Positions 15,799 through 18,246 of a DNA stretch of 64,000 nt are shown one piece after another. The stretch lies in the NCBI RefSeq assembly GCF_024372725.1, contig NZ_VOUA01000020.1:1-64000 (forward strand). Direction: 5' to 3'. Position numbers and translations under genes: made by a program. Under the pieces are notes generated by a model. The model saw only the letters and a program-made list of their open reading frames with translations. It was not told the origin of the DNA and made no database searches. Position 1 is the first letter of the stretch; each line of letters starts with the position of its first letter. Origin of the DNA: Methanosarcina sp. KYL-1 (GTDB taxonomy: Archaea > Halobacteriota > Methanosarcinia > Methanosarcinales > Methanosarcinaceae).

Positions 15799-16584
15799 TC
15801 AGGTCCTGCGGATCTCCCTGGACTGTTTCATGTAATGCAGGATCAGGTCTTCGGTCCATTGCAGGGCTGCAGGTTGAAGGCTTATGATGCCTTCCTGGTC
15901 AAAAGTGCCTTTTGCCGTGAGGAAACTTGCTAACATGAAACGTTCGGTTTTCGTAAGCAGGCCGATTTTTATTTCGTCGGAACAGACAAACAGCTTTTTC
16001 TTTTCCTGGGCCAGGTAAATGTCAAGTTCTCCTTTAAAATCGGTTTCAAGTCTTGAAAAGACCCCTTCTGTTACGATCAGGGTCATTTCGGTTTCTTTTT
16101 CTTCATTTCTCAGGAACTTTCCCGGAAAGATGGGGTGGAAAATTGAGGAAAAGGCGAGTATATCTTTTGATTTCCTGACGTTTTCCATAAAAACGGCAGG
16201 GGGTTCAAAGATATTGTCGGGGTCAGGTTTCACAAGGGAATAAGGTTTCAATTCATTAAACCTTCCCAGAAAAGCCCGGGGTATACCCCTCAGATCGCGT
16301 TCCTGCCAGAAATCTTCGTGCTCTTCAATCACTTCCAGGGTATCAAGCAGTGGTTCCATTCTTTCTACCAGGATTTTTGCTATTGGAGCAAGCATGTATT
16401 CCCTGTCTTCCTGAAGCACCAGGCGATCGTCCTTTAGTTTTTTGATCTGAGGAAGCATCCCGGTTGGGTTGACTTGAAGAGCATCTACGATTTCTTCTAT
16501 GGTTTTGCTTCCGTCTTTGAGCAGAAGTAGCAGGTCCTTTCTTTTCTGGGACATGAAGAGCAGGTCAATCAGGGTTTTTTCCAT
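15799..16584 (-). CDS. Msr-type winged-helix transcriptional regulator
   Basis: 261 residues. The N-terminal part has a winged helix-turn-helix (KRKDLLLLLKDGSKTIEEIV through MLPQIKKLKDDRLV). The remainder matches the layout of the DUF1724/Msr family, whose Methanosarcina members control methyltransferase and other catabolic genes. ATG 16584 (MEKTLIDLL) is preferred to GTG 16593. Long direct repeats lie in the divergent region upstream. Which genes it controls cannot be read from the sequence. Confidence 0.75.
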   Translation of the reverse strand: MEKTLIDLLFMSQKRKDLLLLLKDGSKTIEEIVDALQVNPTGMLPQIKKLKDDRLVLQEDREYMLAPIAKILVERMEPLLDTLEVIEEHEDFWQERDLRGIPRAFLGRFNELKPYSLVKPDPDNIFEPPAVFMENVRKSKDILAFSSIFHPIFPGKFLRNEEKETEMTLIVTEGVFSRLETDFKGELDIYLAQEKKKLFVCSDEIKIGLLTKTERFMLASFLTAKGTFDQEGIISLQPAALQWTEDLILHYMKQSREIRRT

Positions 16585-17009
16585 GTTTCTCACTTTTCCC
16601 GGCTTCTATTTCTGCTGGGAGGCTCCTATTTTCTGTTTTCCCTTTTTTCGGGATAGTTTCTTTAAAGGACTCCGATTCTTTTCGGAAAAGATGGTTTAAA
16701 TGGTTTTTGAAATGGATCTTTGGGAAAGATGGTTTAAATGGTTTTTGAAATTGTTTTTGAAAACCCTTAATATGACACTTAATATGACACCTGATTAATA
16801 TTATGAGAATTCAACGTATCTTTAAAATATTTTTTCTTATTCACTCCACAATAAGAAACCTTAAGTCTATTGTCTGGATTATATCAGTTCGAAAAAGGTG
16901 TTAAGACAGTTAAAGCTTTAAGAAGCAGGGTGTTAAGACATTTAAAACTTCAAGAAGCATCATCGAACGTCTTACCCTCTGCCGGGCTCCGGATCAGGGA
17001 GGGCTTTGC
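16585..17009. promoter_or_regulatory. Divergent regulatory region with two pairs of long direct repeats
   Basis: The region lies between the Msr-type regulator and the phosphoribosyltransferase. A 27-bp unit beginning AAAGATGGTTTAAATGG occurs at 16687-16713 and 16725-16751 (period 38). A second unit of about 30 bp starting GGTGTTAAGACA occurs at 16897-16927 and 16929-16959 (period 32). TTAATATGACAC is also doubled near 16767-16790. These could be regulator sites or slippage products. Confidence 0.5.
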
Positions 17010-17702
17010 ATAAAGTCTTTCAAATGTGTACTTACTAATTGGGATTATATATACGACCTGTGCCGAAAAGTGTCAAAAGATATCAAGCGCTCGGGGTATG
17101 AACCCGACGTGATCATTGCACTTGCAAGGGGCGGCTGGTTTGCTGGGCGTGTGCTCTGTGATTTCCTTGGCCTCGACGACCTTACCAGCCTGAAAATCGA
17201 GCACTATGTGGGAGCTGCAGCTATCGATACGGGAACTCCCCATGTCAGGTATCCACTTGCCGATTCTGCAGTGAAAGGTAAAAAAGTGCTTATTGTCGAC
17301 GACATCGTAAACAGTGGGGAGAGCATGCTCAGCGCAGTTGCTCATGTAGCGGAGCGCAAGCCCCGGGAAATCAGGACTGCTTCGCTTCAGTATGTCGGCA
17401 GTTCGAAGCTTGACCCCGATTATGTAGGGGAGCGGCTTGAAGACTGGGCCTGGATTGTCTATCCCTGGAATTTCATGGAGGACATGGTAAGCATCCTCAG
17501 CAAATGCATGAGAAAAGACCCGAATAAACGCTGGGACCTCACAGCGTTCAAGCACAGCCTTTACACAAACCATTCCCTTGACCCGGTTGTCTTTGAAATC
17601 ACCCAGCCTGGCAGGCTTCCGGAAGTCCTGGAGGAGATGGAACGGATAGGTCGGGTCAGTTCGGAAGCAGTTGACGGGAAGAAGTACTGGAAACTTTTAT
17701 GA
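17010..17702 (+). CDS. Phosphoribosyltransferase with apparent ATA start codon
   Basis: About 230 residues. The PRPP-binding loop VLIVDDIVNSGES and the ALARGGWFAGR segment place it among xanthine/hypoxanthine-guanine phosphoribosyltransferases of archaeal type; the exact base is unknown. No ATG, GTG or TTG lies upstream of GTG 17070 in this frame, but coding continues upstream as (I)KSFKCVLTNWDYIYDLCRK, which looks like the normal N-terminus of the family. It begins at ATA 17010, 6 bases past a strong AGGGAGGG site (16996-17003). I therefore place the start at ATA 17010; the conservative alternative is GTG 17070 with 210 residues. Confidence 0.75.
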   Translation: MKSFKCVLTNWDYIYDLCRKVSKDIKRSGYEPDVIIALARGGWFAGRVLCDFLGLDDLTSLKIEHYVGAAAIDTGTPHVRYPLADSAVKGKKVLIVDDIVNSGESMLSAVAHVAERKPREIRTASLQYVGSSKLDPDYVGERLEDWAWIVYPWNFMEDMVSILSKCMRKDPNKRWDLTAFKHSLYTNHSLDPVVFEITQPGRLPEVLEEMERIGRVSSEAVDGKKYWKLL

Positions 17703-17802: not shown

Positions 17803-18246
17803 ATGCCCCACAGATGTACCAGATGCGGAACTATTTTCGAAGACGGCGATGCTGCCATCCTCAGCGGCTGCCCGGACTGCGGCTGGAATAAATTTCTTTA
17901 TGTGAAAAGGGAAGCCGAAGGTTCGGAAGACCGGGGAAAACCCGCTCTGGAAGAGCAGAAAATGGGCCTGGAATCTTCCCTGGATGAAGTTGTCAGGAAC
18001 ATTGATGAAGCCCTTGCTTTTGAAGAAGAAAATAAGGGCCGGGAACCTGAAGCCGAAAAGAAAGAGGATAAAGAAAGGGTAGAGTCTGTCAGGATCCTGG
18101 GGCCAGGTTCATACGAACTTAACCTCGAGTCCCTGTTTGAAAGAAAGGAACTCGTGATGGCAATCAAAGAAGAAGGTTCATACGCCCTTCACCTGCCTTC
18201 CGTCTTCAACCAGCAGAAAGAGAAATCAAAAGCCAAAAAGAAGTGA
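17803..18246 (+). CDS. Zinc-ribbon protein of archaeal COG3364 type
   Basis: 147 residues. The N-terminal zinc ribbon has CTRCGTIF and SGCPDCGWNKF (about residues 5-32). A charged Glu/Lys-rich linker (about 40-95) and a short C-terminal segment with repeated SYELNLESLF and SYALHLPSVF motifs (about 105-138) follow. The role of the family is not established; a nucleic-acid-associated role is only a guess. Start ATG 17803. A hairpin follows the stop. Confidence 0.7.
   Translation: MPHRCTRCGTIFEDGDAAILSGCPDCGWNKFLYVKREAEGSEDRGKPALEEQKMGLESSLDEVVRNIDEALAFEEENKGREPEAEKKEDKERVESVRILGPGSYELNLESLFERKELVMAIKEEGSYALHLPSVFNQQKEKSKAKKK

Follow-up and report, generated by a model that had tools for sequence, protein, structure and literature searches.

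Conserved near-cognate starts are well documented in a few bacterial genes. The infC gene, which encodes IF3, starts with ATT in E. coli and with ATC in Streptomyces, while Streptomyces sigR has a GTC start in 32/34 cases and a GTT start in 2; the sigR start lies behind a strong, conserved ribosome-binding site (RBS), is misannotated in genomes and is repressed by a fidelity factor (PMC5472188). In a study of start-codon switches covering 36 prokaryote groups, a single AUG-to-AUU switch was counted among 61,358 ancestral AUG starts, and strong Shine-Dalgarno (SD) sites were found to accompany non-AUG starts; AUA does not appear in its main text (PMC5622118). Surveys of this kind, we infer, lean on annotated starts. 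Ribosome profiling of M. mazei described ATG, GTG and TTG starts together with some CTG starts, and AUA is again absent from the main text (PMC11456600). In the literature that we searched, from which most subscription journals are excluded, neither AUA nor AUU starts were described for archaea in general or for Methanosarcina. Genus-wide noncanonical starts are already known from bacteria (infC, sigR).

The gene of interest encodes a predicted purine phosphoribosyltransferase (PRTase) and lies in a 64,000-nt stretch of Methanosarcina sp. KYL-1 DNA (positions 1 to 64,000 of contig NZ_VOUA01000020.1; "the window" hereafter). Its open reading frame extends from 16914 to 17702, the nearest upstream in-frame stop being a TAA at 16911-16913. 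As the initial annotation had pointed out, no ATG, GTG or TTG occurs in this frame between that stop and the GTG at 17070, which is codon 21 if the ATA at 17010 is counted as codon 1. The same annotation placed a strong SD site ahead of the ATA and none ahead of the GTG, and the sequence bears this out: AGGGAGGG at 16996-17003 contains a GGAGG core that ends 7 nt before the ATA, and no comparable site precedes GTG 17070. The features of the locus are listed in Table 1.

Table 1. Features of the PRTase locus and its neighbours, in window coordinates.
Feature	Position	Strand	Remarks
FilR1-like winged-helix regulator (PF08350), divergent neighbour	15799..16593	-	profile match; present in 28 fetched loci
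Promoter-like conserved block (AATAAGAAACCTTAAGTCTAT ... GGATTATATC)	16850..16885	+	conserved in Methanosarcina orthologue leaders
Conserved leader block, consensus TTCCRGATCNKGGAGGNNTTT	16987..17007	+	position conservation
Shine-Dalgarno site GGAGG	16998..17002	+	7 nt before ATA; invariant in orthologues compared without gaps
Predicted AUA start codon	17010..17012	+	in frame with PRTase stop; orthologue comparison
Predicted purine phosphoribosyltransferase CDS (Pribosyltran, PF00156)	17010..17702	+	230 aa plus stop; TGA 17700-17702
GTG codon 21, rejected start	17070..17072	+	GTG at this codon in 1/26 orthologues; without Shine-Dalgarno site
OapC family (PF09845), downstream neighbour	17803..18246	+	profile match; present in 40 fetched loci

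The product matches Pfam family PF00156 with 74.1 bits (curated cut-off 26.3; E=1e-20), while for the NCBIfam equivalog models all scores are under their respective cut-offs. Its nearest solved relative by sequence is the purine PRTase GpT-1 (PDB 4trb; E=8e-38), and the PRPP-binding loop VLIVDDIVNSGES found in the translation pairs with VLIIDDITDTGDS of 4trb in the alignment. The archaeal GpT-1 resembles the Methanosarcina protein in sequence family and in its N-terminal boundary, but it is a distant relative, and the purine specificity of the Methanosarcina enzyme is a prediction. With ATA as residue 1, residues 8-191 of the PRTase align to residues 8-191 of 4trb; since residue 8 falls on residue 8, translation from ATA 17010 would yield the normal N-terminus of the family. 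The reading of the 20 codons upstream of GTG 17070 as the conserved N-terminus (W-D-Y-I-Y-x-L-C-R) was correct. Both the FilR1-like regulator and the OapC neighbour recur in most of the fetched loci. In one genome (G027:C1:318603-320825) some 1.5 kb of additional DNA interrupts the orthologue mid-gene. In another (G013) the gene is in pieces, of which only the first 21 codons were found, spread over two contigs; given these two genomes, the gene may be dispensable in places.

To compare start codons, we used 60 related genomes, together with GTDB contigs, as sources of PRTase orthologues. When aligned with no assumption about the start, the codon at this position is ATA in 25 of 26 distinct Methanosarcina orthologues and ATC in the remaining one, never ATG; among those with ATA is a record named M. 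spelaei (L035). A pattern search for GGAGG followed by ATH matched 28 of the 31 genomes of the genus, a count that includes the interrupted gene of G027 and the fragmented gene of G013. In a search with the codon left unspecified, the position holds ACG in all three matched genomes of a related genus (g22) and ATG in G067. The aligned codon is also ATG in L036 and in Thermococcus-labelled homologues, and in other genera an ATG stands a few codons earlier (ATG-GCN-TTA-CCT-GAT-AAA-TTC). On a PRTase tree built without the start codon, all ATA and ATC sequences form one group, and the sequence closest to it is L036 (ATG). Because ATG is found in L036, G067 and the other genera examined, the Methanosarcina codon likely reflects an ancestral change from an AUG start. 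AUA, AUC and ACG, each one base away from AUG, thus all occur at a single position, and since the g22 codon is ACG in 3/3 genomes, the conserved property is not isoleucine. It should be noted that the third base of the start codon changes once on the tree vs. a median of 4 changes, and 19 of 110 comparable columns show 1 or fewer, so that the statistical case for selection on this base alone is moderate; the argument for AUA rests instead on the coding-frame evidence, the ACG of g22 and the other genes described below. Judged by these alignments and by the two further genes described below, the unusual codon, kept in nearly every species of the genus, is genuine and old, and neither chance nor an error of sequencing accounts for it.

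This start resembles that of infC in being a conserved near-cognate codon other than AUG, GUG or UUG, but infC is bacterial and autoregulated by IF3, whereas the PRTase is a salvage enzyme with no known autoregulation. To our knowledge, archaea lack IF3. With sigR, the PRTase shares a noncanonical start kept across a genus and a strong RBS; sigR, however, is a bacterial stress regulator with a GUC start that has been demonstrated experimentally, while the Methanosarcina case is archaeal, involves AUA, AUC and ACG, and is comparative only.

Our preferred reading, to which we assign a probability of about 0.87, is that the PRTase is translated from the AUA at 17010, which is positioned by GGAGG and whose third base would presumably be mismatched to initiator Met-tRNA. 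The comparison itself shows that the reading frame of the protein opens at this codon and that near-cognate codons have long been retained there. Of the explanations considered in the initial annotation, a true AUA start gained support from a near-cognate codon kept genus-wide behind GGAGG, whereas a base error or a lone, strain-level ATG-to-ATA mutation in the window genome has virtually no probability left and is refuted by the identical ATA of other Methanosarcina genomes that were sequenced independently. A start further downstream, with the ATA lying in an untranslated leader, is improbable. It would draw on a GTG, an accepted archaeal start, which is present at codon 7 in 24 of the 26 species, and on GTG 17070 in the window species. 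The codon-7 triplet is GTA, however, in the window species and in L011, whose first canonical starts are codons 21 and 17, respectively, and thus in neither does the conserved W-D-Y-I-Y stretch have a canonical start ahead of it. Codons 21 and 17 fall inside or after W-D-Y-I-Y-x-L-C-R; a start at codon 21 would lose most of this segment, and with it conserved residues of the part that matches 4trb, where the alignment opens at residue 8. Codon 7 is moreover too far from the SD site (25 nt), and codons 2-6 vary at 5/5 third positions but at only 1/5 first and 1/5 second positions among the Methanosarcina orthologues, a substitution pattern by which these codons are evolving as coding sequence. 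Neither GTG is conserved throughout or preceded by an SD site, and both were rejected as starts. No canonical start is thus able to explain the conserved N-terminus, while species after species retains, downstream of a strong SD site, a codon that is not one of AUG, GUG and UUG.

The substitution pattern ends at the ATA, as no codon periodicity is seen in the 30 nt upstream of it in the orthologue alignment. This bears on two further explanations that would place ribosomes upstream. That an undetected upstream start makes the ATA an ordinary internal isoleucine codon is highly improbable: in some species an ATG, GTG or TTG does occur in frame at a distance of 9-25 codons upstream, and in L025, where 1 nt is deleted between the SD site and the ATA, a TTG immediately precedes the ATA, but none of these codons is common to the species. 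Upstream in-frame stops and chance start codons occur at scattered positions that differ among species, and in L010 (G025) an in-frame TGA directly abuts the ATA, so that its reading frame cannot start upstream. The GGAGG spacing also suits the ATA, and the same position is ACG in g22 and ATG in others. Reinitiation, by which ribosomes would reach the AUA from an upstream ORF that ends in a stop overlapping it (A-UAA or A-UAG), carries little probability, slightly below that of a downstream start. An overlapping TAA or TAG is indeed present in 25/26 orthologues, because codon 2 always starts with A or G; the upstream ORF, however, has no common start codon and no coding pattern, is absent in L025, and in L017 has TCG in place of the stop. 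We rejected a coupled upstream ORF, since conservation of the ORF does not accompany the frequent overlapping stop.

The leader of the gene carries conserved elements of its own. A TATA-like element within the promoter-like block would place the transcript start approximately 60-100 nt before the ATA. The stretch from -23 to -3, which contains GGAGG and a GATC motif, varies unusually little, and CUCC at 16987-16990 can form a weak 4-bp hairpin with GGAG at 16998-17001, which would cover the SD site. In the consensus fold (-3.05 kcal/mol), YUYC at -23 to -20 pairs with the GGAG of the SD site in every aligned sequence; among these sequences there are no compensatory changes, only U/C swaps opposite G, and the folds of single leaders are not clearly or significantly better than those of shuffled sequences. 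The modelled hairpin is no more than a hint that a further regulatory layer may exist, and a search of the PRTase leader against Rfam gave no match up to E=1. The leader in the window also contains two 31-nt direct repeats (16897-16959; 90% identical, spacing 32) that are not seen in the leaders of relatives, and the interval that separates the PRTase gene from the divergent regulator holds two 38-nt direct repeats (16681-16756; 87% identical).

To look for other genes with near-cognate starts, we scanned 1.2 Mb of G026 vs. 1.6 Mb of G016, comprising about 283 ortholog pairs. Besides finding the PRTase again, the scan yielded additional candidates, of which two hold genus-wide. Its filters were tuned by hand, so that the two or three firm cases among the 283 pairs should not be taken as a calibrated rate; looser filters mostly picked up ordinary ATG genes whose upstream sequences were similar by chance. 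The gene for a DUF2111 protein (PF09884; G000:C4:164334-164711 (+), G026:C1:597712-598092) invariably shows ATT downstream of GGTGA in 26 genomes of Methanosarcina and in 4 of g22; in two of the 26, G024 and G019, an in-frame TAA directly precedes the ATT. When the codon was left unspecified, every genome matched (16 of Methanosarcina and 4 of g22) had ATT. A GT2 glycosyltransferase gene (G026:C1:667107-668006 (-)) has ATA as its first codon in 12 genomes and ATT in 8, and never ATG, GTG or TTG in a search without a specified codon. DUF2111 (AUU) and GT2 (AUA or AUU) are thus predicted to be two more genes with conserved near-cognate starts.

Three other genes from the scan are weaker cases and were not counted. 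In an mmp3-like gene (G026:C1:487610 (+), L184), ATTACGAGTAATGAGAT does not vary among 27 genomes even at the DNA level, its ATT (27/27) included, but an in-frame GTG lies within its SD site. A matrixin-like metalloprotease gene (G026:C1:494235 (+)) has ATT or ATA (AUU/AUA) after GGAGG, and a peroxiredoxin-like gene (a minus-strand ORF near 698 kb in G026) has ATC (AUC) in G026 and ATG in G016; both were seen in a single genome pair only.

As for what the AUA start might do, initiator Met-tRNA would read the codon with its one mismatch aided by the strong SD site, and the property being kept would be that the start is weak: enzyme synthesis would be held low by a poor codon combined with a strong SD site. 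Weak initiation behind a strong SD site is the likely role of the AUA, and the "self-limiting expression" proposed in the initial annotation is plausible. Alternatively, weak starts could persist since the protein is needed only in small amounts. A weak start would also render synthesis sensitive to the strictness with which the ribosome and aIF1 check the start codon, and by analogy with the bacterial cases its role is possibly tuned by initiation fidelity. For aIF1, discrimination against non-canonical starts is reported from systems of Sulfolobus and Pyrococcus (PMC6237735), and thus a fidelity control of the AUA genes like that of IF3 on infC and sigR would be possible. A broader and rather doubtful proposal is that Methanosarcina and at least one related genus keep AUA, AUU, AUC and ACG starts behind strong SD sites as a regulatory class that would respond jointly to initiation fidelity (the state of aIF1, aIF1A and aIF2), as an archaeal counterpart of the IF3 control of infC and sigR.

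Gene finders usually permit only ATG, GTG and TTG, and genes with near-cognate starts are consequently mis-started or shortened in databases. An archaeal set of such genes, belonging to a genus that is genetically tractable and for which ribosome profiling data exist, would offer direct access to start-codon fidelity.
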